From contig LUVW01000043.1 of the NCBI GenBank assembly GCA_001661515.1, positions 214,453-265,975 of the forward strand: a DNA stretch of 51,523 nucleotides, read 5' to 3'. A program made the position numbers and the translations under genes. Each line of letters begins with the position of its first letter. The first letter of the stretch is position 1. This stretch comes from Capniomyces stellatus (lineage: Eukaryota > Kickxellomycota > Harpellomycetes > Harpellales > Legeriomycetaceae). Below the pieces are notes generated by a model. It worked only from the letters and a program-made list of their open reading frames with translations. It was not told where the DNA came from and did no database searches. Shown one piece after another: positions 4,077 through 49,231 of the stretch.

Positions 4077-4472
4077 AAAACTGTTTCCATTATGGTATTA
4101 ACTTTGATTAAATCGACTAAGTTGGAAATTCTGAGTTTAGTTTTGTTGTAACTGACATATTTTTAATGTGTAAGGCCATCATGTCGACTTGTTTTGGGTA
4201 TTTGGTTTTGATGTTTAAATGATTATTAATGCAAATAAACTGGGTATACTCAAATTATATATCAAAGTAATTGTAAGGTTTTTTCTCTCTTTTTATTGTT
4301 AATTTAATAATACAATATTGTAAAATATTACAAAGCTAGTGGAACACTATCTAAAAAAAGTTACTAATTCAAGTACTACCCTACTCCATTTCGTCCCTCT
4401 AGAGACACCGTACCTTGACGGTGTTGATTCAGTGGGGCTGGTGATGTACTAACCTCATCGAGTCTTAGTAAT
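4077..4472. repeat. 396-bp direct repeat, copy 2
   Basis: Second copy of 3266-3661. Beyond 4472 it continues into the better preserved retroelement fragment, while copy 1 diverges. Confidence 0.9.
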
Positions 4473-4975
4473 CGGGTTGCGCGAATTAATGTCAAGAATG
4501 ATGCTGTTGCAAGCGTCATCGAGACTGAGCGGTCATATTCTTTCTTTTGGATAGCAGATGCCTTGATCTTTAGTTCTCCCCTCCCGAGAAGCTCACCTAC
4601 CAGCTTATTACGAGCTGAGTTGGGCGTAAGACTAAAGTCCGGTAAACTCTGATACGTGTTGTCAGGAATAAATTCCTTAAGAGTAATTTCTCTAGCATCG
4701 TCCCATTTGTTACAATCAATTAGGATGTGCTTTATTGTTTCTGGGTGTCTTCTGTGACACATTGGGCAGCATTTTTGTATTTGGTGTTTATGAACTTGCT
4801 GTTTGCTAGTCTCTCTGAGGTCCAAAAACGTTATGTTCTTATTTTTCCTATTTCTTTGATTCCTCTACTGTGCCCAGGGTATACTATTTCTAGTTCTGTC
4901 CAATTCGATCCTTTGTCAATGTCATGATCTATTATCCATTTTGTAATTTCGGACACGTCGTTTTTCAAGTGTCAG
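4376..4975 (-). mobile_element. 5'-truncated non-LTR (LINE-like) retroelement, reverse-transcriptase C-terminus
   Basis: The minus-strand ORF 4376-4825 encodes a Cys/His knuckle, CPMC-(x)6-ETIKH-(x)4-C, the zinc-binding motif after the reverse transcriptase of many non-LTR elements. Upstream, 4845-4960 encodes more of the same protein (WTELEIVYPGHSRG, then GKIRT) in a different frame ending in TAA, so there is a frameshift between them. No catalytic RT or endonuclease region is present. It is a dead 5'-truncated fragment; the two shorter relics nearby come from the same family. Confidence 0.75.
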
Positions 4976-18138: not shown

Positions 18139-19458
18139 TTATGTTATCTTTTTGTCATTGGTCGTATAGTCAACTAGCATAAGAGGCGGTCCGGGATGTT
18201 GGGTATTATTATTTACTAGCCCAAAACAGATTACTGTATTCGGACCGTCTTGAAATTCAAACGGCCTATCAATGTCCTTGTCAAGACTTGGTTTATACTT
18301 GTCATCTAAAAATTCAAAGTCACTAAATGTGTATGGAACCTCAACTCCTGGAACAATGATAACCCGGCGAAAGTTGTTTTGCCAAAAGTCATTGCAAAGC
18401 AGCGAGCACTCTGAGGCTGAGCATTCGCCCTTTTCAATATCCGATCTTCTGAACTTGAGGTTTACTGGTGGGTAAAACGGCTCAGGGTTTAATACTGTGG
18501 CACCGTTCCAACAGCACTGCGCTTGGAACGGAAGTGTCTTTTTAACTCTATTCATTGATGTTCCATGACCAGTCAAACTGCTTAAATCTTTTGAAAACAT
18601 ATTTCCGTTCAAATCACGAGCAACCCAAGTGTCTCTAAACCCGTGTTGAATTTTTAACTCGCCGTCTACTTCCGTGCTCATCATATCGTAGTCGATTGGA
18701 CATGTTATATCTGCCTTGTGTGTGTTTGACTGTAGTATCATTTCTAGAATATCATTTCGACAGAATAATATATCATTCAGGAACACTATTTTGTCATATT
18801 TAACACCGTTGTTGTAGTCCTCAGTTAGTGGCTCAAGAGCCTTGTTGCGGACCTTTGCCAGAAAATCAATTCTATGATATATACTTGGTTTTTTGGTCTC
18901 ATCAAGGTTAAACCTGTGTCTTATGTTGTACTTGTCCAGCATAGCAGAGAATTCACGTAGCTTTTCTTTTGTGTTGTCATCCGACCCACTTTCGTAAATG
19001 GAAAAATATATGTTCTCAGGTCCCAAAAAATCGAATACCCGGAGCAGTTCTTGCGCAAAATGTGGAACTAATTCCTCATTGTTGTACAAGTTGGCGGCGA
19101 AAAAGTACTTTGGGCTGTCGGTTTTTGGTATGTTTCTTACTGCTTTTTTGTAGTAGAAATCAGCACCTTCCAAATCGTACTTACTCACCATATACTCTGT
19201 GCTAAGAGGCAAAAGCGGCAGGTATCTGCCATAAACTTCGCGCGACTTGTCAAACAGTATTCGTCTTTCAGTCCGACACCGTTCTGCTGGTTCAATTCCG
19301 TAAGAGTTGCTGTTATCCCTGTCAAGGGTATTTTGTAAGCTTGCTATTTTGTACATGTTAATTTTGCCTCTTTGGTATCGTATATCACCAATTCCGCCAC
19401 TACGCGCTTGGTTGATGTTAATCAGAGCTAACGCAAATGCAGTTGTAAGTACCTTCAT
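18139..19458 (-). CDS. CMT1: Secretory-pathway mannosyltransferase, GT69 (Cap59/Cmt1 family)
   Basis: A 439-residue intronless ORF. It has an N-terminal hydrophobic signal or anchor (residues 1-20) and then the GT69 domain of fungal alpha-1,3-mannosyltransferases such as Cmt1/Cap59, which act in the secretory pathway on glycans or capsule-like polysaccharide. Visible family blocks are FFAANLYNNEELVPHF, ENIYFSIYESGSDDNT, a Tyr-His-Arg-Ile-Asp-Phe-Leu-Ala-Lys-Val-Arg-Asn block, KIVFLNDILFCRNDILE, ITCPIDYD, FRDTWVARD and CCWNGATVLNPEPF. The FLND segment takes the place of the acidic metal-binding motif. A TATA-like run lies ~145 bp upstream. Acceptor and linkage cannot be told from sequence; the symbol marks the family, not proven orthology. 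Confidence 0.85.
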   Translation of the reverse strand: MKVLTTAFALALININQARSGGIGDIRYQRGKINMYKIASLQNTLDRDNSNSYGIEPAERCRTERRILFDKSREVYGRYLPLLPLSTEYMVSKYDLEGADFYYKKAVRNIPKTDSPKYFFAANLYNNEELVPHFAQELLRVFDFLGPENIYFSIYESGSDDNTKEKLREFSAMLDKYNIRHRFNLDETKKPSIYHRIDFLAKVRNKALEPLTEDYNNGVKYDKIVFLNDILFCRNDILEMILQSNTHKADITCPIDYDMMSTEVDGELKIQHGFRDTWVARDLNGNMFSKDLSSLTGHGTSMNRVKKTLPFQAQCCWNGATVLNPEPFYPPVNLKFRRSDIEKGECSASECSLLCNDFWQNNFRRVIIVPGVEVPYTFSDFEFLDDKYKPSLDKDIDRPFEFQDGPNTVICFGLVNNNTQHPGPPLMLVDYTTNDKKIT

Positions 19459-22400
19459 GGTCTTTTGCTCTCAATGTACACGGGTTTATCCTGTTGAATA
19501 CACACAAGCTTATTTTTGCCAAGTATGCAGATTAGTTGAAAAGTTGACGACTTGTTTGAAAAACCACTTTATTTTTCTCTTCCCTAAATCGTCAGAGGCT
19601 ATATATATAATATGCGACTATTCTAATGCAGCCTCTGTTTTGGACATCGTCAACCATTTTACTTCTAGTAATCACAAAATATGTTTATATAAAGTGTTCG
19701 AACAAGAAAGTCGATTATAATCTCAATTAAAAAAAAAGAAAGAAAGTCGATTATTACTATCAAGTGGGCAATAATGGATTTGATTTTGCGAAACATTCAT
19801 GTTTTTAGGCTATTGTTTTTAATAGTTTAAACCTCGACACAGTTCGACATTCAACAATTGTTGAAAAATATATATCAGCTACTTTATCTTTTTTTTTTTA
19901 CAGCGATGTTTTGAAGTTTTTCTATTATTTCCAACAAAGGATAGCGAACAAGGCAAGTATCAAGTTGAATGAAAATGCTATTTACGCTCGCTTTCTCAGT
20001 AGGGCTGCTTTAAAACCAGTTACGCTGAGACTAGGCCGATAAGCGTTAGTTTGCTATATCACCCTTTGCAAAGAAAATAATATAAGATTTTGAAGGGTTG
20101 TTGAGTTCAACTCAGCCAGTGTATTAAACTCAGTGCCACTTGAAATAATGTTTAAATAGTGTTCATTTAAACATTTAATAATGTGGCTGATATGTCTACT
20201 TTGGCTCGGGTTTCTTGGATCAGTAATCCTTGTGTAAACTCGGCTCTCATAGACTTGCAGTATCACTGTGATCGGCAAATCTATACAGGTGGTTGGCGAT
20301 AGATGTGTGGTTGCGGGCCACCTTTTGTATTCGCATCCAGAATGTGTCTATACAAAGCCAGTATGTACCAACCGCTAAGGGTTTGCTAGTGTTCAGTTCA
20401 AGTGTTGCATTTCTTTTTTTGCTCCCAACTCCGCTAGTTTACTCGAGTTGGCAGGTGACTTGAAATTTTTTTGCTATCAGGGCAGCTCATTGCTTCAATG
20501 TGTAGTTTACCCTTGAACCATCCTATGTTGTTATTTCAATCAAGAAAGTTTGATTGTTGACCAGCAGCTGTTTGTATATACAATTATTGTGCTATTAATT
20601 GTTAGTTCCTGCCCTAACAATCCAACCAATATTATTATTAATAGCTTGTGTGCGTATACGAATTATTCTTATAGTTAGGATGTTTAAATGTAGTATCAGT
20701 AATTCTTAGGTAAACAACTTGGATTCATGCTTGTATTTTTTTTATTTTAAAAAAAGTATAATGATAAAATAAACAACTGCACTCACTTATTTGTTAAGTT
20801 GGGTTTTCCATTAAACATAAAGGCCTAGTTAGTATTAAAAAGGATAGTGTCAACGCATATTGTTGTTTGATAGTAGATATTCATTGTTATATACGTTACA
20901 AATTGTAAGCTGTCATTATGAGTGTTGCTGTTATTGTGAAAGTTTATTTTCCCATTGTGCTTTGAATAAATCAAACAAAAACCACTCAGCATTTCAATAA
21001 AAAAACGAAAACCACAAAGCTCTCAATTTCAATTTCAGAAATTAAAATCTGATGATTCTGTAGACAATAGCTCAACTCTAACGGTATAATCCACATAACT
21101 TCACACCATACATTATTGTTACCATTATATTAGGCAAGTAGGTGTAGATGTGTTTCAAATAAAAAGTTAAAAACCAAATACTATGAAAAAGAGAATTGGT
21201 ATAGAACAACCGAATCAGCACAGAACAGACATGTCGATATCCAACTGCAATAAAACACGTTTATAGCAATGACTTTATTGAGTTGGAAATAAAAAATATC
21301 AAGCTGGAGAGTCTACAAGAAGTACATCCAAACTATGAAAGTAAAATTAATCATAATCACAACTGGCGATTGTATAAAACAAACACATGTTGAAAGTTTA
21401 AATTTTCTGATTCTTTTTTCACTTGATTACTTGGTCTGTCAGGACTAGTTGATATTATTCAACAAATCAAGCAAAGGAGGTGGTACTCGATACTTCAATC
21501 ATTAATTCAACACATGTTTCTCAAGTAAAGGCAAATACAGCATATTCAAGACTTGGTTTTAATTTTATTGAACTGAAATAAAACATTTAAGATTAAATTT
21601 TCAATACCAATATGGCGATTAAAAATATTCCATGTTGATATCAACATTGCGGTATCGAGTCAGAGACCGTAATGTATAGACGTGTAAAGATTTTAAATCA
21701 CTAAAGTACCAACTGTTGCTTTGTGTGTTAAAATTGGAGTATATCCCCCGCAAGCAAAAGAGTTGATAGGCTATTTATAAAGATCGAATATAGCCTTGAG
21801 AATGTGTGGATGTACTATTAATAAGATATTTACTAGGTTGCCGGGGCATTAACAGTTTTATGCGGAGGTCCTTTTCCTAGCTAACAGAAGTTTTTATATT
21901 AAAATGTTCTAAATTTCAAAATTTCAAAAGTTCAAAAAAAACAAACTAAACGTATAAAAAGAGTTATAACCAGCTTCAACCATTAATTACGGTGCTTGTA
22001 TGGCTAGCTAGTTACACGGCTGGGAGGCAAGATGTATAATTAGCACAGTTGATTATACGAATATACATTTATTTTAAGTAAAGTAGAAAATAATTTTAGC
22101 TAAACAAAAAATTGGTTAGCATATTGGTTCAAATTATGAGCACAAAATCTGTCTTGCAAGATTAAAGAAGGTTAATGTTTAAAAATGGATACATGTATTT
22201 ACTCCCCACTATAAAGAATTAATTGTACTCTAAGGATCGATGGATACATATGTAAAAAAAAAAAAATCCAAACGCTTACAGACACTTTTAATAATAATAA
22301 AAAGCAAGTAAAAAAAAGTTATTATGTCAAAATTAACGCAGCCTGTATATTATTTAAAGATTAAGACTAAAATAACACCATCCATTCCAGTAAAAAAGAA

Positions 22401-24189: not shown

Positions 24190-27083
24190 TCAAAAGCCCA
24201 AATAGGGTAAAAATCTTGGCAATAGCTTGAGTTTTCCCTTTATTGAAGGGGAGATGGAGTGATCGATGGATACTTGGATAGGAAGAACAAATGCGCCTGG
24301 ATCAGGAGGACACTCCCAGTAAAAAGCGATTTCAGAGCCAGAATCAACAAGAAGTTTGGAGCCATCATTAAACAAGAGCATGAACTCGTGGCGGTCAGAG
24401 TTTTCGTCGATGACATTTGCAGAGGAGTGGAGGTTATTGTAGCTGTTGTTGTTGTTTGTTGGGGTTGGGTGTGATGGAGAGTAGACTTTTCTGGCTTGAC
24501 ACCACCCGATGTTTGGAATGAAACAGAATTGGTTTGACTTTAAAGAGTTGCTGGGGTGGGAGTTGAGGGGGTGGGATTGTTGGGGTTGGTGTGGAGGAAG
24601 AACGGGGTTGTTTGGGGGGTTTAGGCTAAATTGGGGGGTGGGGTGGGGTTTATACTGGGTAGGCATATGAGGTAGATGGGGCTGATTTTGATTTTGATTT
24701 TGATTTTGGAATTGATTTTGGTTGGTAATAGAGTTGAGATTGGCGTTCATTGGTAGCGTTGAGGATCTGATGGTCATAACTGGAGAGTTTGAGGAGCGGT
24801 TGGCCAGGTGATTTTGGTTGTTGAGGCGGTAATCAGAGCTGGCAAAAGTGGGTGGTGGTTTACTGGAGTGGTGAGCAAAGTTGGCAGGATTTGAGCTCGG
24901 GAGAGGCTGGAGGTGAGCAATTGGCAGAATTCGTTTCTTTAGAGAGCTTGGGACAAAGGCTTCAAAGTCAATGTCAGAGCGGATGTGGACCGGGTACTTT
25001 ACAGATCCAGTGAACATCGGGCTTCTTGGGTCAGTTCCGTTTTCCCAGGCAGAAACAACAGTCTCGGCAGTAGTGCACAGATCAAAGCATTTCCGGACGT
25101 GAGCAACTATTGGCTCTAAACGGTGGGGAATTGACTCGGGCCAGCTGCTGCTATTGGCTGGATTTGACGGCAGCAGCGGCAACCGCTGGATTTCGTCAGG
25201 CAAACCAGAGTTGCTCGGAATCCGAACCTCAAGCATCTGTTTCTGTCGCGAGTAGTGCACGTGGATTGAGTTGTAGAACGTCACGTGGAGATCGGCAAGC
25301 GGCAAGTTTTCCATGTACATGGCTTTGGCCTGAGGCGTCTTGAGAACAATCTAATCAAACACATCTGTGGTTCAGTGTCCGCTAAAGTGGCTATGGTGAT
25401 GCACGCAGCAGCCAGTAGAAGTCTAGGCAAATATATATATAGAGATGTAGTTTAATTGGTTGGTTTACCTTTGGCGTCTTTGATTGGACCAGCTCAACAA
25501 ACTTGTGCACATATTTGGTTTTGCGTTTTGTGTCAGAGTCCATTTCGTCGTATATAAGGGGCTGTCTGCCTAGTGCCTTGGACTGGTCCAGAATTGCTGT
25601 TCCCGAGGCAAAAAACAACAGGCACTGCAGGGCGGGATCTATCAGAATCAGCTGCGAGTCTCCTGAAAACTCGGCCTTGATTCGGTTGTCAGGCAGAATT
25701 TCAATTACTGCATATTTGGTCTTTTGTCTGATTGGCTCCAAATGCGCCGTGTTAAAGTCTATGTACTTCGTAGCTGCTTTGGTGCTGCTTGGCCTGTTTG
25801 CGGCTGCAGTGTTAAGCGATGCTGCTGGTTTTGATTGGCTGGAATCAAACATCTCAGCCATGGCATTTACAAGAACCGAATTCTTGTGGATCGAAAGTTT
25901 TCCCATTCTATGCTCAATGTCTCCCCTGTCAAAGTCTGTGTTTTTCTGCAGTTGGTCGCCACTCTTACCAATCTTGTTGCCATAGTCGTTGTTGCTGTCG
26001 TTTACCAGATGGCTGCGCCTCTTCCTTAGACTCGGTTGCTGGCTGGGCTCCGCTGCGTAAACCGAGAGTCTTGGCAAGTGTCTAGACGTCAAAATCGGCT
26101 TGAAAAACGCGTGGTTAAACAGCTGGTTTATAGTAAGCCTGCTTGAGGGGTCTTTGGACGTCAGTTTGCGGCACAGATCCAATACCTCAAAACTGAGGTC
26201 AAGCCGCGATAGCTTCGAGTCAACCCCATCAGCAATCTCGCGGTCGGTTGGCGACTTTCCCGTCAGAAAGGTAACCAGCAGACACCCCAGCGTCCACATG
26301 TCCGATGCCAGCCCATAAGGCTTGCGCGCCATTACTTCTGGTGAAATGTAGTTTGGTGTTCCGCAAAACGTTGTTGGGTCTGTTGATTTGTTGCTCATTT
26401 GCGTTGCCAGCCCAAAATCCGTGATTTTCACCTCCATATCTCTTGTAATTACCAGGTTTCTCAGCTTCAAGTCCCTGTGCAGAATCCCCTGCTTGTGCAT
26501 ATACGCCACCCCCCTCCCCAACTGCAGCATTATTCCCCGGATCTCCTCCTCGCTTAGCCTTGCCAAGCTTTCTTCCTGCTCCCTCTCCCCACTCCCCATA
26601 TCATAGCCATATTCACCCCCCTCTCGTATCCTCTCTATCCTCTTTCGCTCCTTTAAATACCGATACATATCCCCCCGCTCGCACAGCTCCATCACCAAAT
26701 ACACCCTTTTATCATCCTCAAAAAAATCATACACCCTTACAATCGACTCGTGTCTCATCTGACTGTGTATCGACACCTCTGCCGCCAACCGCGAGCGCAG
26801 TGCCTCGTTCTTCAGCTGGCTTTTCTCCGTGATCTTTATCGCCACTTTTTTGTCCATTCCCCATTTCTCCACATTTCTAATCGATGCTCGATACACTTTG
26901 CCGAATCCCCCAGACCCTATTTCCGCCTCTATTTCAAAGTCCTACACGTATTTCCAACCACATATATATACATTTAAAAGTACCAGTTGTTTTTAATGAC
27001 CCCCATTTTTTATCCCTTGATAATTCCAATTTATTCAAGTCAAAAAGCATGGAAATTATCGCATGCAATGTACTTACATCCAT
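24190..27083 (-). CDS. PLK4: Polo-like kinase 4 (PLK4/SAK) with cryptic polo box and PB3
   Basis: Three exons: 27083-27078 (six coding bases, Met-Asp), 26941-25469 and 25350-24190; 879 residues. The kinase domain is at ~4-284: glycine loop GSGGFGKVY, VAIK lysine (Lys38), HRDLKLRN, DFGLATQ, and activation segment TFCGTPNYISPE. PLK4 is indicated by YDFFEDDKRVYLVMELC and by the regions after the kinase. The cryptic polo box starts ~403 with LEPIRQKTKYAVIEIL and runs across intron 2 via KFVELVQSKTPK to MENLPLADLHVTFY. PB3 at ~768-879 has IPNIGWCQ and LLFNDGSKLLVDSG. Polo-family Plk1/Cdc5 lacks this arrangement. Known role: initiating centriole duplication. Oddities are a ~25-residue insert in the kinase C-lobe entry (after YLKERKR) and an Asn/Gln-rich linker before PB3. 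The gene is divergent from CDC45. Confidence 0.93.
24684..24722. repeat. (gatttt)n coding repeat in PLK4 linker
   Basis: On the minus strand it encodes alternating Asn-Gln (NQNQNQNQ) between the cryptic polo box and PB3; likely a flexible linker. Confidence 0.8.
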
Positions 27084-34819: not shown

Positions 34820-36709
34820 CTAAATCCAAATATACTTTGGCTTTGATCGGAACCTCAAAAATAGGTAGGCCAGGATGGTAAAAAACAAGGCAATGCACAT
34901 ATTGATCAATACACATTGGTATATTTTGAACCTAGTCATATTATATGACTCCAAAACAGCCTCACCGGTAGGGAAACAAGTCGTACCTTCGATTTCTCCA
35001 CAGTCAAAAACCCTCCCAGTGAACTCGTTCTGCATGATAGCCATAAAGGTGTAGTATACGTGACTGATATATCTGATCCAAGAAAGAGCATCTGGGACTG
35101 ATTCGGTATTCACAGCGTTTCCGCCATATATAAGGAAAACCGAAAGGATGATTGGGGATATGATTGATGCTACCTCAATCGATGATACGGCGGCAGAAAC
35201 AGCCATTGCAAACCCAAATGAGGCCAGTGCCGTGGTCATGTATACTCCAATGTAAATAAAGTAGTTGGCTGCAACTGGTTTGAAATTGGCCAAAAAATAT
35301 ATCCCTGTCAACATAATAAAGTTCTGAACAATGATAATCGGAAGCTTTGTGAATATTATTGAAAGCAAGTAGGACGATATTCTGTACGAGCCACTTGCTC
35401 TTTCCCTAGTCATTACAGACTTATCCCGAATCAGTGCGTTTATATTTGGCATAACAACAGGGAATACCAGATTGATAGAAATCAAAAATATCAGGCCAAT
35501 TCTGTTCTGTACCGCTGCAAATCCTATTCCCTCGTTAAAAAATGTAAATCCGATTATTAGCATAGTTATAATCGCGCTCATAAAAGCCGAAATCAGCACT
35601 GTTCTATCTCTAACTTGACGCAACCAAGATCGACGTAACAGCAAAAAAAACTCGGATACCCAAGGGTTTTTAAAATTTACATAGTCATCCTCTTCCACTA
35701 TCTCGTTGATATGTACGTGCTTAGTGTCCAGTTTGTAGTCAGATGTATCGATTGATCCGTCGTACGAATTTATTGTTGTGTCATCTTTTGATAGCTTTCC
35801 TTTCAGTTCGATAGGGGTTTTTTCCATTTGGTTATGCTCTGCCCACGACCGCTTCAGTTTCTCAACTCTCTCGGTGGATTCTGCTAATATTTCAGGCGAA
35901 AATGTATCAATGGTCATCAAGTTTATAAAGAAGTCTGCTGGATTTTCTTGCCCAGGGCATTTGTACCCTAAACCGGCAAAGTAAGCCAAAGCCTCGTTGG
36001 TTGGTCCGTTGTAAACAACTCCTCCTGGTGCAAGCAATATGACTCTGTCGAATAGGGCATATGTTCTCGAACTAGGCTGATGGATGGATGAGAGAGTGAT
36101 GATGTTCTTTTCTTTGGTGATATCGCGAACCAGCCTAATAACACTTTCTGCAGAGTTTGAGTCAAGTCCTGATGTTGGCTCATCAAGCATAATCATCTGC
36201 GGATCGCTTACCATTTCAACTCCAATGGAGACACGTTTCCGTTCACCTCCTGAGACGCCTCTAACCTTCTCATCACCAATCATGGTGTCTCTGGACTTTG
36301 ACAACCTCAAATTCCTGATCAATTCCTCAACGCGTTCCTTTTTGTCCTGCTGGCTGTAGGTACTGCCATCCACTCTGAACTGGGCGGCATAGAGCAGGGT
36401 TTCGTACACAGTGAGTGTTGGGAACAGCAGATCGTCCTGTTGCACATACGCAACTGTTTTTTTGAATTCGGCAGGCACTCTTTTCTTTCCGTTAAATTTT
36501 ATCTCGCCTGTGATGGTTCCGCTTGTGGTTCTTCCAGCAAGGATATTCAAAAGCGTGGTCTTTCCTGCACCTGAACTGCCAATAATGGCGACGGTCTCTC
36601 CGCTGTTTACTTTCCCACTGACTCCTGTGAGAATGGTTTTGTACTTGGCATCCTTCCCGCTGCCAATCTTCACGGTGTATTCAATATCTTTGAACTCTAG
36701 TGTAGTCAT
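34820..36709 (-). CDS. ABCG-type (White/BCRP-like) half-transporter, copy 1
   Basis: A 629-residue intronless ORF with the reverse NBD-TMD order of ABCG half-transporters, which dimerise to move lipids, sterols or xenobiotics across membranes. NBD: Walker A GSSGAGKTT at 44-52, Q-loop YVQQDD near 89-93, signature VSGGERKRVSIG from 152, Walker B MIMLDEPTSGLDS from 172, and the H-loop His210 in SSIHQPS. A charged linker (~275-365) leads into about six membrane segments between 375 and 625. The start is an in-frame Met directly before the conserved LEFKDIEY strand. It is a tandem paralogue of the gene at 38242-40146 in the same orientation; about 500 bp of their NBD coding sequence is nearly identical while the rest has diverged. 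Substrate unknown. Confidence 0.93.
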   Translation of the reverse strand: MTTLEFKDIEYTVKIGSGKDAKYKTILTGVSGKVNSGETVAIIGSSGAGKTTLLNILAGRTTSGTITGEIKFNGKKRVPAEFKKTVAYVQQDDLLFPTLTVYETLLYAAQFRVDGSTYSQQDKKERVEELIRNLRLSKSRDTMIGDEKVRGVSGGERKRVSIGVEMVSDPQMIMLDEPTSGLDSNSAESVIRLVRDITKEKNIITLSSIHQPSSRTYALFDRVILLAPGGVVYNGPTNEALAYFAGLGYKCPGQENPADFFINLMTIDTFSPEILAESTERVEKLKRSWAEHNQMEKTPIELKGKLSKDDTTINSYDGSIDTSDYKLDTKHVHINEIVEEDDYVNFKNPWVSEFFLLLRRSWLRQVRDRTVLISAFMSAIITMLIIGFTFFNEGIGFAAVQNRIGLIFLISINLVFPVVMPNINALIRDKSVMTRERASGSYRISSYLLSIIFTKLPIIIVQNFIMLTGIYFLANFKPVAANYFIYIGVYMTTALASFGFAMAVSAAVSSIEVASIISPIILSVFLIYGGNAVNTESVPDALSWIRYISHVYYTFMAIMQNEFTGRVFDCGEIEGTTCFPTGEAVLESYNMTRFKIYQCVLINMCIALFFTILAYLFLRFRSKPKYIWI

Positions 36710-38241
36710 GGTGTTTCCATGTATATATTTTTTTGTTGTTGATAATTATACACAAACCAGTCGACCAGTCTATAAATTGTACTTTTTTTATCAGGGCTGG
36801 ACCCTATTCTATTATTGGGTTGTCTGTACTTACAAATTTACAAGTTTAAATAATATATATCTATATATATGTTTATGTTTATGTCTCAAGAAACACAAAA
36901 GTATTGACAAGTGAATGTGGTGGGCATAGTTAACTACTTATAGTTGGTCTTTGAGCTATCTGCTTTAAATTTATATAAATGGTGTGTTTAAAAGCAAATC
37001 CTTTTAGGCACTTTTGACTACATTAAAAGCTTGTGTTGTTGAATGCCTTTAAACTACTAACACAGCTTCAGTTATTTAGACTTTGTAGCCAATTCCAGAT
37101 CATCGCAAATTGTTTATTAGCAATAAACATACTATTGGGATACTAAGCTTTACTACAAAAGATTTGTAAACCGAAGCGTTTGTACCTTTGGTTTGATTTG
37201 TAGCATCGATACCATCTTCTTGGGTCATAAATGTATGCTGCTGCGTTAAAAGCGTCAATTAGCGGTGTTTGGAAGCGCTTGTTTTTATACCTATTGCTAT
37301 TATTGCTGAGATCACTTGGTTAGACGTATTTGTGTTCAAATCTCAACTCTGTTGGAGCTCTAAATGTGCTTCCATTGTTTGTTTACCGTTTTTTTATTTT
37401 TATTTTTACATTCTGCAATCAACCGTCTAATTATCCATCTCTATTCGAGTAAACATTTGCTAAAATTATTGCAAATCTAAACTCGCCAATGGTTTACTAT
37501 TTACTTTTGTTATTTACTTTTCGTTGTTATTAGTTAAACATGCCAAAAAGTACACTTGTTCGATTTTAATAAAAAAAAAGGAAATATTATTTGACAAGAA
37601 TGATCAGCGTTTTACACTCGGTACCAATGGAATTATTAAAGTTTAAGGCTTTTTTTTTATTGAGATTTTTAAAGCTTTTATTGTTATTGGTGATAATACT
37701 TTTATTTTATTTTATTATATTTTATTGAAATAGTAATAATATTTTTTTTTTATTAAAAAAAATATTAAATTCAGGTTGCTTGTCAAGTGCTTGGTTCTTC
37801 CATGCCTCAGATAAAACCAAGAAAAGTTGAACTGTTCTATTAGATCTGCGCTATTAATTATTTGGTTTGGGTAAACTATCATTATATATAGTCGTACCAA
37901 TACCAGTGTCTACAACCAGAATCAAAAAATGAATAAATAAAAATGCAACCATAGCTTATATATCTCTGTAACTATTGTTGTAAAAGGTTAAAGCCAGCAA
38001 AGTGGATATTGAAAGTCGGTTTAGTTTAGTCAAGTGCAAAATAATAAAACTTTTCTCTTGTTCAAATCTATAAAATACAAAAAAAAAAAAGGAAGCTTTG
38101 CTCTATTAGAACAGGTTAAAAAATACCAAAATTAAAGATTAAATATAAATACACTATAAATGAGTATTATATGAATAGATGTACAGATGTACGTGTGTTA
38201 GCAAGTATAAAAACGAAAAGAGCTGGTGGTAAAAGATCTTG
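36710..38241. other. Intergenic region between the two ABCG genes
   Basis: About 1.5 kb, AT-rich, holding the promoter of copy 1 and the 3' flank of copy 2. No gene is supported. Confidence 0.5.
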
Positions 38242-40146
38242 TTAGATCCAAATATATCTGGGCTTTGATTTAAACCTCAGCAACAAATATGCCAATATAA
38301 TGAAAAGCAAAGCTATAGCAAAATTGAAAGCCACGCACTCGTAAATAGAAAATTTAAGCAAACTGTACGACTCTAAAACAGCTTCGCCAGTGGGGTAGCA
38401 CGCTGTTTTTCCATCAAGGACACAGTCAAACACTCTTCCTTTAAACTCGTTCTGCATAACGCCCATATACGTAAAGTAGGTGTAGCTTATGAATCTAATC
38501 CAGGACAGCGCAGCGGGCACAGTGTCTATGTTGACAACATTTCCACCGTAAATGATAAATACGGAAAGCATAATTGGAGCAACAATCGATGCCACCTCGA
38601 TTGAGGCCACGGCAGCTGAGACAGCCATTGAGAAGCAAAAAGACACTGCAAGTGTGGATGTGTAAATTCCCAAGTAAGTAAAGAACTTGCCCACATCTAG
38701 TTGGAACTTTGTTAAGAAATAAATGCCACTTAGCAGCACCAAGTTCTGGATCAAAGTGATTGGGAGCTTTGTAAAAACTACAGACAGCAAATATGTAGAG
38801 GTCCTGTAGGAGCCGCTTGCTCTTTCTCTCAGCATGATAGACCGTTCTACTATCAGCGAATTAATCAGCGGCATAACCACAGGAAACACCATGTTGACAA
38901 CCAGCACAAACACCAGTCCAATTTTGTTTTGTGCTGTTGCAAATCCTTCTCCTTCGTTGAAATATGTAAAGCCAATCAGAAGCGTTGTGATTATTGCACT
39001 TGCAAGCACAGAAAAAAACACGCCTATATCCCTTGACTGAAGGGTCCAAGATCGACGCGTTAAGCATATAAGCTCGGATATCCAGGAGTTTCTAAAATCG
39101 ACAAATTCAAATTCTTCGCATGGTTTTTCAGCTCCATAAAACAAGATGTCGTCATTCTCAAAAATATAATCAGAGCCACTCACTTTGCTTTGGTATGTAT
39201 CGAAGTTTAGAGTTGAAGTGTCAGCCAATTCAATACTGCTATAATCCCCGCCATTTTTTTCGATTATTTGGCTACGCTCTGCCCACGACCGCTTCAGTTT
39301 CTCAACTCTCTCGGTGGATTCTGCAAACAATTTGGATGAAAATGTATCAATGGTCATCAAGTTGATAAAGAAGTCTGCTGGATTTTCTTGCTCAGGGCAT
39401 TTGTACCCTAAACCGGCAAAGTAAGCCAAAGCCTCGTTGGTTGGTCCGTTGTAAACAACTCCTCCTGGTGCAAGCAATATGACTCTGTCAAACAAAGAAT
39501 ACACTCTGGAACTAGGCTGATGGATGGACGAGAGAGCAATGATGTTCTTTTCTTTGGTGATATCACGAACCAGCCTAATAACACTTTCTGCAGAGTTTGA
39601 GTCAAGTCCTGATGTTGGCTCATCAAGCATAATCATCTGCGGATCGCTTACCATTTCAACTCCAATGGAGACACGTTTCCGTTCACCTCCTGAGACGCCT
39701 CTAACCTTCTCATCCCCAATCATGGTGTCTCTGGACTTTGACAACCTCAGATTCTTGATCAGCTCCTCAACCCGTTCCTTTTTGTCTGACATATTTGAAG
39801 TTTTTGAGCAGACTCTAAATTTAGCAGCGTAAAGCAGGGTTTCATACACAGTGAGTCTAGGGTATAGAAGGTCGTCCTGCTGCACATACGCAACTGTTTT
39901 TTTGAACTCGCGTCTATTTCTTTTCTTTCCGTTGAATTTTATATCACCGGTGATGATCCCTGTTGTTGCTCTACCAGCAAGGATATTCAAAAGCGTGGTC
40001 TTTCCTGCACCTGAGCTGCCAATAATGGCAACAACCTCACCGCCATTGATTACTCCGCTTACTCCGGAGAGAACATTTTTATATCCAGCTTTTCCGTTCT
40101 CTGTTTTGAAGCTGTAGCTTACGTCTTTGAATTCCAATTTGACCAT
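38242..40146 (-). CDS. ABCG-type (White/BCRP-like) half-transporter, copy 2
   Basis: A 634-residue intronless ORF, upstream tandem paralogue of the 34820-36709 gene. It has Walker A GSSGAGKTT at 43-51, signature VSGGERKRVSIG, Walker B MIMLDEPTSGLDS, H-loop SSIHQPS, a charged linker, then a six-helix membrane domain ending in the shared C-terminus LRFKSKPRYIWI. The linker (about residues 295-360) and membrane domain differ clearly from copy 1, so the pair may differ in substrate or expression. The ~1.5-kb spacing argues for separate promoters. As half-transporters the two could heterodimerise; that is inference only. Confidence 0.93.
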   Translation of the reverse strand: MVKLEFKDVSYSFKTENGKAGYKNVLSGVSGVINGGEVVAIIGSSGAGKTTLLNILAGRATTGIITGDIKFNGKKRNRREFKKTVAYVQQDDLLYPRLTVYETLLYAAKFRVCSKTSNMSDKKERVEELIKNLRLSKSRDTMIGDEKVRGVSGGERKRVSIGVEMVSDPQMIMLDEPTSGLDSNSAESVIRLVRDITKEKNIIALSSIHQPSSRVYSLFDRVILLAPGGVVYNGPTNEALAYFAGLGYKCPEQENPADFFINLMTIDTFSSKLFAESTERVEKLKRSWAERSQIIEKNGGDYSSIELADTSTLNFDTYQSKVSGSDYIFENDDILFYGAEKPCEEFEFVDFRNSWISELICLTRRSWTLQSRDIGVFFSVLASAIITTLLIGFTYFNEGEGFATAQNKIGLVFVLVVNMVFPVVMPLINSLIVERSIMLRERASGSYRTSTYLLSVVFTKLPITLIQNLVLLSGIYFLTKFQLDVGKFFTYLGIYTSTLAVSFCFSMAVSAAVASIEVASIVAPIMLSVFIIYGGNVVNIDTVPAALSWIRFISYTYFTYMGVMQNEFKGRVFDCVLDGKTACYPTGEAVLESYSLLKFSIYECVAFNFAIALLFIILAYLLLRFKSKPRYIWI

Positions 40147-42420
40147 ATTTTATCTGAAAGAATCCACAGCTTGTTGCTTTAATCTGATGCTGTACGAGAT
40201 TATGGTCTTGGCTAAGCCGTTTGAATAGGAAAAGGAAAGTATATTTTAGTCGGGTGTGAATAAAAATCAAAATTCAATATCGCAAAGTACTAATGTTCTT
40301 CATATAAACATATCACTGCCTTTAAAAGTTACAACTATAGGAGCTGGATTGTTGGTATACTAAGAAGACTCAAATCCTGGGCACTTGAATGGGGTTATTT
40401 ATGTAGTTTGCCAAAAATGGGGTTGGCATTAGGTTTGAATTTAGTCAAATAACCAGCGTTTAAATAAAATAATAAGCATCAGTATTATGTATGCCCTTTT
40501 AAGCAGTATTAGCGTATAGACTTCCATTTATAAATATACCTGTTTATTTTGGTTTAGCCAGATAAACACCATGGTAAATATTATTTTTATACCCCTCCAG
40601 TAGTTGCAATTAAATGCCAAGTGTATACAGCAGTAAATTTACTTTGACTTTAACGAAACATACACTCACACTATTGAGGCCAACTTAACCTGATGTGTTT
40701 TAAGGGTTGGATTTATTTCAGGTTAAGCTAAATTTAGTTTTGTTTGTGATTTTGAAAGAATGTCGAGTGATGATTTTTTTTACTTGGGTTGGTATTAGCA
40801 TTGGAACTAGGATTAGAAATAGCATCGGAATTGGAAATAGTATTGGAGTTGGAAATAGTATTCGAATTGGAAATATTATTGGAATTGAGAATAGTAATGA
40901 AGTTGAAAATAGTGTTGGAATTGGGAATAGTATTGGCATTTAATCGGTCAATATTAATAAATGACAAACAAACAAACGAGAATTGAAAGAAAAACAATAA
41001 TAACAATAGGAGGTATATTAAGTAGCTAAATCGGAGTCCAGCCAATAAATACTCAGCCTAATATAACTTTGGTTTAAGTCCAAAGTAGAACAGAGAAAAT
41101 ACGTATCGATATGGTAATTGTATGTTCAAAATAAAAGTTTTGAGCTTTCAGATGCTTGACACAATTTTTGCTAAATGGAACCATCAACCGGTACCAATAA
41201 GTATCGAGTGATATCTAAGTCAAATAACGGTCAAAAAGAAAAAAACGGCGCTGGATTATACAGGCGGTTAGAGTAGACCGAGATATCGACATTGGGTTGT
41301 GTTATGTGCATATGTCATCTAAATGCAGCGGTAGTATGCAGCAGAATGCAGCGCAGATATACGATATTGAAAGGTGTGAGTGGTAAGGTTATCTGGGTTT
41401 TTTTTTGTGAATACTAGAGTTACGCTTGGATTTAAGTATCAAGCGTTGTAAGCAATCAAAAAAGCAGTAGTGTAGCTAGTAAAAAAGATAATGTTGCTTA
41501 GGATGATTTGGCCTACTTTAGAAATTTGGGTTGGATAGTCAAAATAAATAAAGCAAGGATATCTCCCAATGGTCTTTTTATCGAGGGATGGGCAGTAAAA
41601 ATGTATAGAAAATAAAAGAATATTCTGGAAAAGTTTTAAAACAATCAAATGTAATTCGACAGATTAAGTGAGGCTTGAGGAGAGATTTCTTGAAAAAGAA
41701 TGAAAAAGGATGAAAAAGTCATGGATCCCAAATACTTGATTGAATCTAGAGTTAGATAAAGAATTTGAAGAAAAAATATGGAAAATTAAATTAAAGCCAA
41801 TTTAAAAAAAAAACAACATTTTATTGGTCTAAATACCAAGTAGAAAATTAAAAGCAGGTGGGAACTGGAGGGAATATGATTAAAAAAGGGGAATAGTGAA
41901 GCTCAAAATAAATCTGGTAAATAAAAAGTCTCTAAAATCAACCAGAATAGTGATTTTGAAAAAAAAAGGGAAAAAAAAAGGGAATGGAAAAGAAAAAAAG
42001 AAAGCGAGAGCAAATCGAAAATGCTGAAAACGATAAATGAAAATTTAGCTAGCCATTAAGTTGATTGGAAAAGTAAATTGTTAATAGTTATTAGTATTAA
42101 AACCAATTAATAATGTAATAATATAAAAAAAAGAAAAAAAATGGAAGGAGAATATTAAAAGCATAAGCAAGGTAGGGTATATTAAGCACCAGAAATAAAG
42201 AAAGTCTACCTTGAATATCGAGAATTATTCAACTTAATATCTTTCTTTTTTATTATTATATAATTTGGATTCCTTTTCTCGGTTTAGATTTTGTTGCTTT
42301 GACTCTAAAAGTTTGAATTGAAAAAAAAGACTACCTGAAAACCAAAAGCAAAACCAAAACACAAGGAAGAGTAAAGTAAACAAAAGTCGCTTGGAAAAAA
42401 ATAGCAAGTTTGATAACATA
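40147..42420. other. Intergenic region between ABCG copy 2 and AHA1
   Basis: About 2.3 kb, AT-rich, with a minisatellite at 40797-40942. ORFs across the minisatellite on both strands reflect its composition. The last few hundred bases are the AHA1 promoter. No gene is supported. Confidence 0.5.
40797..40942. repeat. Imperfect minisatellite, units of ggaattggaaatagtatt
   Basis: Roughly eight 18-bp units with substitutions. All unit lengths are multiples of six, so long ORFs appear on both strands. No gene context is seen. Confidence 0.75.
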
Positions 42421-46361: not shown

Positions 46362-49231
46362 CTAGTTTGAGCCATTAAGACACCTGTAGTTGGAGGCGGG
46401 AATATGCAAATCAACCTGGTCGGAACCAAAATCCAAAACCTCGAGAAAAGTAGAATCGTTTTTTCTGACAGCAGCAATGAGGCGGCGATCGTTGAACTTG
46501 ACTTGCCAAATGTTGGACAAGCCAACGAGAATGTCACGAACATAAAGACCGGAGCGCAGGTCCCAAAGCTTAAGGGTAGAGTCGCCGCCGCTGACGACTT
46601 TGGCACCATCGTGCTGGAAACAGGTGATTGGGGAGGAGTGGCCTTCGAGGACAGAAATAGGGTAGCCAGATGAGGGATCCCAGACACGTAATGTGGCGTC
46701 GGCACCGGCAGAGACGAGGCGGTTGTGGTCAAGAGAAAGCAAGCCAACGAGTGTGGAGTGGCCAACAAGGGTTCGTAGGCAGGCGCCGGTATCAAGAGAC
46801 CAGAGTCTGATGTCGCCATCCATGGAGCCAGAAAAGATGATGCGACGGTCAGGATCGACGACGATTGAATAGACTTTTTCGGTATGGCCAACAAGGGTTT
46901 TCAAGCAGGAGCCGGTGAGAACGTCCCAAACGCGAACAGTGTTGTCGTAGGAGCCAGACACGATTAGATTGCCAAGGGAGGAAACGGCACGGACGGATTG
47001 GGAGTGGCCATTGAGGATGTGTTTTAAGTAGGGGTTAGAATTGGGAGGAACAATTTGGGTATTTTGAGATTGAGAGTTTAGATTAGGGATAAAAGGACTG
47101 GAAGTAGTAGTAGTGGTGGTGGTGGTGGTGGTGGTGGTGGTGGTGGCTGTTGAGGACAAAAGGAACTGGGTGCGGGGGTAGTAGGAGTGGTCGGTTCGAA
47201 GGTCGGGAAGTTCCCAGACTCTCAGAGTACTGTCGCGACTTCCGGTAACAAATAGGGGGGAGGAAGGCTCGTAGATGGGGCGAATTCCGGCTCTTTTCTG
47301 GGCAAGAGTGCGGATGTCTTTGGGGATCATAAGCTGCAGACACCTGACTGTGCTTGCGTGTCCAGAAAACACGTGGGTGCATCTGCCAGATTCGGCGTCC
47401 CACACACGTACGGATCTGTCAGTTGACCCCGACACGACTGTGTTTCCTATAAGCCCAAGAGCCCAGACTCCGCCTTCGTGGCCTCGTAATTCCTGTCTGA
47501 TTGCACCGTCGTTTATGCCGTATACCAGAATCATTGTGTTTTCAAAGCCTGCCACTACCTTGTCGTTGTCAAACAGCAGACACGTGACCACCTCGTTGTC
47601 CTGCCCGTGGAACTCCAGACGTGTTGCACGGCCTGTCTTCCACCGCTGTTCCAGAACATACCGCTGGTGGTACATTTGCTTGTATCCGTTGACTGCTGCC
47701 AGCCGGTCCTCATTCTCATCACCGTCCTCATCCTCACCATCACCGTCCTCATCCTCCCTAAACGCTCTTGCTCCTGCCACGCTTGGCGGCGACGGCAGAC
47801 TGTTTTGCCGCCAGTAGTCTTGGTCTGTTACTCCGCCGGTAACTGCCGCCGATCCCGCCGATCCATGATCCACCGTTCTTGATTGCCTTCTGCTGCTTGC
47901 TGCTGCCAAGTAGTCTGGCCTTTCCACTGGTCTCATGCGTATGTGCCCACAGCTCGGCTGTAGATTAAACTGGTGTACTATTTCTGGTCTCACTCTGTTT
48001 TCTGCACACTCGTACCCGTCCCTTCTCAGCCGGTCCCTCCATACCCCCGCACTCTCCTTGCCCTCTATCAATCGCTGCCACCTTCTCGATACACATCCCG
48101 CTCTGCACAGACTCTTCACGTCCATAAATCGCATAATCTGGTTCGACAACTCTACTGGAAGTTCGCTGAAAAAGTCTCGCTTCAGTGCTGGAATCGCCGT
48201 GTTTGACACAAACTGCAGAACTTGCCGGTTCGACCTCCTTAGCAGGTGTGACATCATGTACAGCTGCAGTGTCGTTGGCAGTTCTGTATATATCTCTATT
48301 ATTTCTGGTAGCTTGTATATTCCGCTCAACTCTTCCCTATCCATTTTTTCTTGCTTTACCTCCTCTCTTACTATTACTCTGCTTTTTGTATTTTCCATTT
48401 TCTCTTTTTTCTCGTTTATTTCCCACTCCATTCTCTCCACTTTTGCTTCGCTTCTTACTTTCCCTCCTCTTCTCCTATACCTTCCCCCTTCCCCCCTTCT
48501 GCCAATCTCCATTACACTCTCCTCGCTCTCTTTACATGACTCTTCGCTCTCTACCGACGAACTTCCTATATCCATCCTCAACCCATCCACTTCCATCACC
48601 AACTCTCTATTTCTGTTCCTTTCCTCGTCAATCTCTCCTTCCATGTCTTCTATCTCCTATATCATTCCATATTTCTCTCTTTTAATTCTATTCCTCCCCC
48701 TCTTGCCTATTTTATTACCCCCTTATTTCACTATTATACTCTACTTACACTGCTCTCTCCCGTCTCCTCTTCAAATCCCGCTATTTCTTTTCCAAACTGC
48801 GCCACAAACTTTGTTAGACCCTTTGGAATCGGCTCCTTTGCCAACGGATATTTCTCTCCATCTCCTCCAATCTCTTTCCTAACCCCGCTGATCCTCACTT
48901 TTGGGTATTCTGTTGTTGTAGTCACCGTTGTTGTCACCGTTTTCTTTGTCCCATACATTATTGATAGCTGCGTTCCCATCTTTGTTCGGTTCTTTGTCTT
49001 GCTCTTGCCCTTGCTCTTGTTCTTATTCTTGTCCCTGACCTTCGGTCCCCACCCCCCCTCCTTATCTCTTTTTACTATCTGCCCTGCTACGTCTCCACCA
49101 CTACCACTCCCGTCTTTACTCTTTTCCTTCCCATCAACCTTACTCTCCTCTTTATTCTCTCCTCCTATATTCCTCAAGTCCATGTTCTTGCTTTCGTCTC
49201 CTATTTTCAACGTTGTAACTTCTCTATTCAT
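46362..49231 (-). CDS. CDC4: SCF ubiquitin-ligase F-box/WD40 subunit Cdc4 (FBXW7)
   Basis: Two exons, 49231-48749 and 48656-46362, phase 0, GTAAGT...ATATAG, intron 93 bp; 925 residues. Cdc4 recruits phosphorylated targets (CDK inhibitors, cyclins) to SCF for ubiquitination, mainly in the nucleus. Exon 1 carries the fungal Cdc4 N-terminal signature, TVTTTVTTTTEYPKV then YPLAKEPIPKGL. Exon 2 has a charged stretch, the F-box (FFSELPVELSNQIMRFMDVKSLCRAGCVSRRW), the linker YKQMYHQRYVLEQRW, and about eight WD40 blades from GQDNEVVTCLLF to NIWQVKFNDRRLIAA; many end in RVWD or RLWS. A poly-Thr insert of about 14 residues sits between WD40 blades. If exon 1 is not the first exon, the N-terminus could be longer. 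Confidence 0.95.
47104..47147. repeat. (ggt)n trinucleotide repeat encoding poly-Thr in CDC4
   Basis: Roughly 13 ggt/agt units on the plus strand give a Thr run between WD40 blades of the Cdc4 propeller. Confidence 0.9.

Follow-up and report, generated by a model that had tools for sequence, protein, structure and literature searches.

Why should a fungus without flagella keep a gene for PLK4, and what could the kinase do there? In animals, the cryptic polo box (CPB) places PLK4, STIL bound to the polo box PB3 activates the kinase, and PLK4 recruits SAS-6; the CPB serves centriole targeting and PB3 serves STIL binding, and SAS-4/CPAP is the builder of the centriole wall. We address the question in a 51,523-nucleotide stretch of Capniomyces stellatus DNA (the window; GC content 37.5%) and in the assembly to which it belongs (24.51 Mb in 59 contigs).

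According to the available text of a 2019 survey, chytrids are the only fungi in whose genomes SAS-6, STIL, CPAP, CEP135 and CEP295 had been identified, and the PLK4 gene too is missing from yeasts; a 2018 review, in its accessible part, likewise describes PLK4 as lost from yeasts and present in chytrids. A 2026 survey (PMC13358043) reports in its main text that 132 of 342 flagellar orthogroups also occur in non-flagellated fungi, and proposes non-flagellar roles for many of the retained signalling and cytoskeletal proteins; the same main text, supplements aside, makes no mention of PLK4, SAS-6, CPAP, SASS6, CENPJ or polo. Our literature search recognised no report of PLK4 or SAS-4 in Kickxellomycotina, where the supplementary tables of PMC13358043 and PMC10406608 may list them, and no paper holding both PLK4 and Smittium.

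Identity and architecture of the PLK4 gene

On the minus strand of the window, positions 27083-24190 encode, in the spliced reading, a protein of 879 aa in three exons. The exon model is based on homology and splice signals: both introns are GT..AG, the frame is open across all three exons and the stop codon ends at 24190. The first-pass annotation had put forward the same three-exon model, and its coordinates and length were reproduced exactly. The features are as follows.

27078..27083, minus: exon 1, coding for MD (ATGGAT, then a GTAAGT donor)
26942..27077, minus: intron 1, 136 nt, GT..AG
25469..26941, minus: exon 2, residues 3-493 (kinase, linker, PB1)
26102..26938, minus: kinase domain, residues 4-282 (Pkinase, E=1.1e-63; best four PDB sequences are PLK4)
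25481..25756, minus: PB1 half of the cryptic polo box, residues about 398-489 (match to human PLK4 CPB)
25351..25468, minus: intron 2, 118 nt, GT..AG, interrupting the CPB
24190..25350, minus: exon 3, residues 494-879 and stop (PB2, low-complexity linker, PB3)
25036..25480, minus: PB2 half of the cryptic polo box, residues 490-598, with intron 2 within (Plk4_PB2, E=3.7e-14)
24193..24540, minus: PB3, residues 764-879 (model pLDDT 81.3, pTM 0.71; best rows human and fly PLK4 PB3)

The kinase motifs, cryptic polo box and PB3 that had been claimed for this protein are all present. GSGGFG starts at residue 11, VAIK at 35, HRDLK at 157, DFG at 177 and GTPNYISPE at 196; the CPB motif HLEPIRQKTKYAV starts at residue 402 and IPNIGWC at residue 771. 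Pfam places Pkinase and Plk4_PB2 over cut-off (E values as listed) and Plk4_PB1 under it (E=0.0014, residues 398-428 only). Compared with human PLK4, the kinase is longer by an insert of some 26 residues in the region from about 103 to 130, and one pattern found no phosphodegron-like DSG motif in the protein.

Solved structures rank PLK4 first for each domain. The best four of the 484 PDB sequences matched by the kinase at E<=1e-20 are PLK4, with 190-193 bits against 151 bits for the best PLK1 among the matches listed. For the CPB, the seven best of eleven rows are PLK4 chains (E from 1.7e-13, for human PLK4 CPB structures, to 3e-5), and the remaining four are noise (E 0.98-2). The fold prediction that the first-pass annotation had proposed for PB3 gave a polo box, and its match ranking puts PLK4 PB3 (human, fly) first, with Plk1 polo boxes almost equal.

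A kinase tree of 11 rows, in which Aurora and the genome's own Plk1-like kinase are long branches, sets the gene outside the Plk1-3 branch: human PLK1, PLK2 and the Plk1-like kinase stand apart at 93/92, and the gene is sister to its Smittium homologue (98/95), the pair then being joined by Mycoemilia and the database protein P0005 (100/99). A single PLK4 group that includes the animals is weakly supported (51/46), with Aurora on the PLK4 side. A genome search with Plk4_PB2 (PF18409) returned a single match, the window's PLK4 gene, which shows that the search is able to detect a diverged domain and sees one PLK4 in the genome. One further polo-box gene, with a kinase and POLO_box in a 1147-aa open frame, lies on contig C25 (L013 2904-6344, minus). 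Like PLK4, this Plk1/Cdc5-type protein is a polo-family kinase with C-terminal polo boxes; it differs in its POLO_box pair, in having no Plk4 domains listed and in its separate branch. Its linker is very long and of low complexity.

Read from sequence, the gene is near certain to be a true PLK4. The choice of PLK4 over Cdc5/Plk1 is upheld by Pfam, the solved-structure ranking, the kinase tree and the separate Plk1-type kinase in the genome. That the gene is instead a relic, a contaminant or a mis-annotated Plk1/Cdc5 kinase might be argued from the weak support for one PLK4 group, with Aurora on its side, and from the Plk4_PB1 score under the Pfam cut-off. We hold this to be very improbable: it is largely refuted by the intact catalytic motifs, the frame open over three exons, the separate Plk1-type gene and a tree that groups the kinase firmly with Smittium, Mycoemilia and P0005 and keeps the Plk1 type apart. 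The presence in the window of a fungal-type CAP59 mannosyltransferase also speaks against it.

The CAP59-type gene (18142-19470, minus; Pfam: Cryptococcal mannosyltransferase 1) belongs to a family active in fungal capsule and wall synthesis. Two similar, adjoining ABC half-transporters (34823-36745 and 38242-40149, minus), the first identified by Pfam as ABC_tran plus ABC2_membrane and the second read by eye, are likely a tandem duplication. An open frame at 4376-4864 (minus) contains a CPMCHRRHPETIKHILIDC stretch that looks, by eye, like a retroelement reverse-transcriptase tail. A gene for an F-box and WD40 protein of the SCF-adaptor type (46365-48656, minus) lies at a distance of about 19 kb from PLK4. 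An adaptor of the F-box/WD40 type brings about PLK4 degradation in animals; here the proximity is probably due to chance, because the one pattern applied found no DSG-type degron in PLK4.

Relatives of the gene and the apparently flagellum-less host

A protein-database search with the C-terminal part of PLK4 (residues 370-879) gave four matches among 6376 candidates at E<=0.001: Smittium culicis, Mycoemilia scoparia, a sturgeon and an abalone. Smittium belongs to the Harpellales and Mycoemilia to the Kickxellales, both within Kickxellomycotina. The Smittium culicis protein (P0001, 834 aa), named PLK4 in NCBI, is alike in architecture and length class and aligns to 97% of the query region with 36% identity; identity is 55% in the kinase and 52% in the CPB and only 30% in PB3. 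By BLAST, its CPB matches at 248 bits and its PB3 at 40.4 bits, where 200 shuffles of each reached at most 25.8 and 24.3 bits, respectively. In a model of the whole Smittium protein (pLDDT 61.3, pTM 0.38), residues 389-584 and 741-829 have strand-helix patterns that hint at polo boxes; a fold search with this model gave kinase domains (PLK1, PLK2, Aurora, others) throughout the 50 matches listed and says nothing on the CPB.

The Mycoemilia scoparia protein (H4219_004529, hypothetical; P0002) and the unnamed ENA protein P0005, which starts within the kinase domain, are more distant (kinase 39-44%, CPB 34-37% identity). Neither bears the PLK4 name in database listings; both have a kinase and Plk4_PB2 over cut-off and a PB3-like end, and for both Plk4_PB1 is absent from the listing at E<=0.1. 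The PB3 core is 40% identical to that of Mycoemilia over 80 columns. Animal PLK4/SAK (human, sturgeon, abalone) has kinase, CPB and PB3 in like order and is, among solved structures, the top match of each; kinase identity to the sturgeon and abalone proteins is about 37-38%. The window's protein differs from animal PLK4 in the kinase insert and, by the one pattern used, in the lack of a DSG-type degron.

The linkers behave differently from the domains. With composition correction off and the stretches of low complexity, they have no significant match to those of Smittium PLK4 (20.0 and 17.3 bits), and linker 2 reaches 25.8 bits (E=7.5e-4) with the sturgeon protein and linker 1 reaches 21.6 bits with P0005; these scores are not zero, but composition was taken as their cause and they were rejected as homology. 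That conservation is concentrated in three working domains, in two orders, while the linkers diverge argues for a working protein under selection on function.

The gene is thus a further member of the known PLK4 family, whose Smittium homologue is already named PLK4 in the databases. The public Smittium culicis entry contradicts the expectation of the first-pass annotation that, among fungi, PLK4 would be found only in flagellated ones, and means that the window fungus is not alone among flagellum-less fungi. No Coemansia PLK4 was found in the protein-database searches (6376 candidates; 7991 candidates sharing most words). The second of these, a C-terminal alignment search, returned P0002 itself and P0005 but missed P0001, so that names missing there mean little.

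The host had been read as a zygomycete-grade fungus without flagella, and both its genome content and its PLK4 relatives bear this out and point to Kickxellomycotina, which the accessible part of the literature treats as part of Zoopagomycota, a group described there as non-zoosporic. A search for axonemal dyneins, suggested at the outset, led to one heavy chain, cytoplasmic dynein 1: the genome has one AAA_6 place at E<=0.001 (four candidates scored), a 1348-aa dynein piece scores 1635 bits with cytoplasmic dynein 1 versus 715 with the best axonemal chain, and the genome profile search found no axonemal heavy chains at E<=0.001. Six places, all six scored, resolve into four tubulin genes: alpha and one beta by eye, a second beta at 591 bits against solved structures, and gamma at 110 bits, compared with 57.5 for beta, again against solved structures. 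None of the tubulin places in the genome search is delta or epsilon tubulin. As far as sequence can tell, this gene content fits a lineage without flagella.

Search for centriole genes elsewhere in the genome

The first-pass annotation had also called for a search for centriole proteins, and this was rewarded in part: a probable SAS-4/CPAP gene came to light, and SAS-6, STIL and CEP135 were not found in searches that had no positive control in a fungus. A genome search with Tcp10_C, the SAS-4/CPAP G-box, gave two matches, which lie within a 482-base span of contig C16 and are each under cut-off; one of 14 control genomes also gave a sub-cut-off match (Corynebacterium glutamicum, a bacterium). 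The two matches belong to the following gene, next to which a GH16 protein is encoded.

C16:626066-628283 (L012 3567-5784), plus: SAS-4-like gene, eight exons, seven in-phase GT-AG introns

Its product of 366 aa has the G-box at its C-terminal end, and Pfam lists nothing beyond it; a version one residue shorter scores 38.6 bits against Tcp10_C (cut-off 36; E=8.3e-10). For the last 139 residues, five of 13 structure rows are CPAP/Sas-4 (E 7.6e-10 to 2.7e-8) and seven are an unrelated series of repeat proteins (8pra at 6e-7), of which 8prj outranks CPAP because eight pieces, none over 7.0 bits, add up in its score. None of 130 database candidates was a relative at E<=10. On this evidence the gene is a probable SAS-4/CPAP.

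SAS-6 gave no match with Pfam SAS-6_N at E<=1 or with the human and Chlamydomonas N-domains as queries at E<=10, and neither STIL_N nor the CEP135 N-terminus matched the genome at E<=10; all of these searches ran without a fungal positive control, and domains split by exons lower their sensitivity. A POC1 query, likewise run without such a control, hit 85 WD40 places with no clear orthologue among them; identity was 37% at the best-scoring place and reached 45% in short pieces. Since the PF18190 search of the genome also failed to reach E<=0.001 although the gene is present, the empty SAS-6, STIL and CEP135 searches are not read as absence.

These results bear on two rival accounts. PLK4 and SAS-4 could have been retained to serve a spindle pole body that has no centriole, with the kinase controlling its duplication or microtubule nucleation and with the cartwheel and the nine-fold core gone; the empty searches for SAS-6, STIL and CEP135, run without a fungal positive control, and for delta and epsilon tubulin in the genome would agree with this. 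SAS-4/CPAP is, however, a builder of the centriole wall. A nine-microtubule cylinder has, moreover, been reported in a spindle pole body of the Kickxellaceae, in the accessible part of the source, and we judge the acentriolar account rather unlikely.

Alternatively, PLK4 might work wholly off the pole and serve polarity, septation, general cell-cycle signalling or some other pathway, with the SAS-4-like protein unrelated to it. Its diverged linkers would suit such a role, as would the non-flagellar functions proposed, in the main text of the 2026 survey (PMC13358043), for retained proteins; against it, the CPB and PB3 are conserved and the same genome keeps a SAS-4 homologue, and we find it improbable.

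A possible role at the spindle pole body

We favour, as reasonably probable, a reading in which PLK4 and SAS-4 maintain a reduced remnant of the nine-fold centriole inside the spindle pole body and PLK4 licenses its duplication; the localisation and partners of PLK4, the organelle itself and the duplication role of the kinase are what we infer here. PLK4 would have been inherited vertically in Kickxellomycotina after loss of the flagellum. As in animals, the kinase would form dimers through its CPB, which would also place it on the spindle pole body, and PB3 would bind a STIL/Ana2-like partner. Once per cycle, active PLK4 would then license the duplication of a short microtubule cylinder with nine-fold symmetry. 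This cylinder would be a centriole reduced to singlet microtubules, whose wall SAS-4/CPAP would help to build.

A remnant of this form is proposed because of three points, each drawn from the accessible parts of the sources or from taxonomy. In the 2018 review, the spindle pole body of Coemansia reversa, a fungus described as having neither flagella nor a centriole proper, holds a cylinder of nine microtubules, 68-71 by 80-100 nm, that is perhaps a degenerated centriole and whose molecular composition is called unknown; Coemansia is in the family of Mycoemilia; and sanchytrid fungi, which have no delta or epsilon tubulin, are reported to have centrioles of nine singlets. The probable SAS-4/CPAP gene favours an organelle over reuse of PLK4. 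Against the organelle stand the failure to find SAS-6, the review's own description of Coemansia reversa as having no centriole proper, the observation, in the available text of its source, that Plk4 of Drosophila, when produced in fission yeast, failed to localise to the spindle pole body, and the lack of a Coemansia PLK4 among the sequences retrieved, which leaves family membership as the only tie to the species whose cylinder was imaged.

A bolder version of the remnant reading, which we think quite unlikely, would have Kickxellomycotina build and duplicate a nine-fold singlet cylinder with a minimal module of PLK4 and SAS-4, having lost a recognisable SAS-6 cartwheel, CEP135 and delta/epsilon tubulin. 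If true, this might be the smallest known centriole-making set, and a stage midway between the centriole and the spindle pole body might still exist in living fungi.

The retention of PLK4 together with a probable SAS-4 in flagellum-less fungi would go beyond the published surveys cited above, and we did not find it in print. Such a pair in a lineage of this kind would mean that the machinery for duplicating centrioles persisted after the flagellum was lost. It would also supply two candidate proteins for the nine-fold cylinder of Coemansia, and with candidates named the transition that turned a centriole into a spindle pole body becomes directly testable. Coemansia reversa belongs to the same subphylum as the fungus studied here and to the same family, the Kickxellaceae, as the PLK4-bearing Mycoemilia; its nine-microtubule cylinder is known from microscopy.
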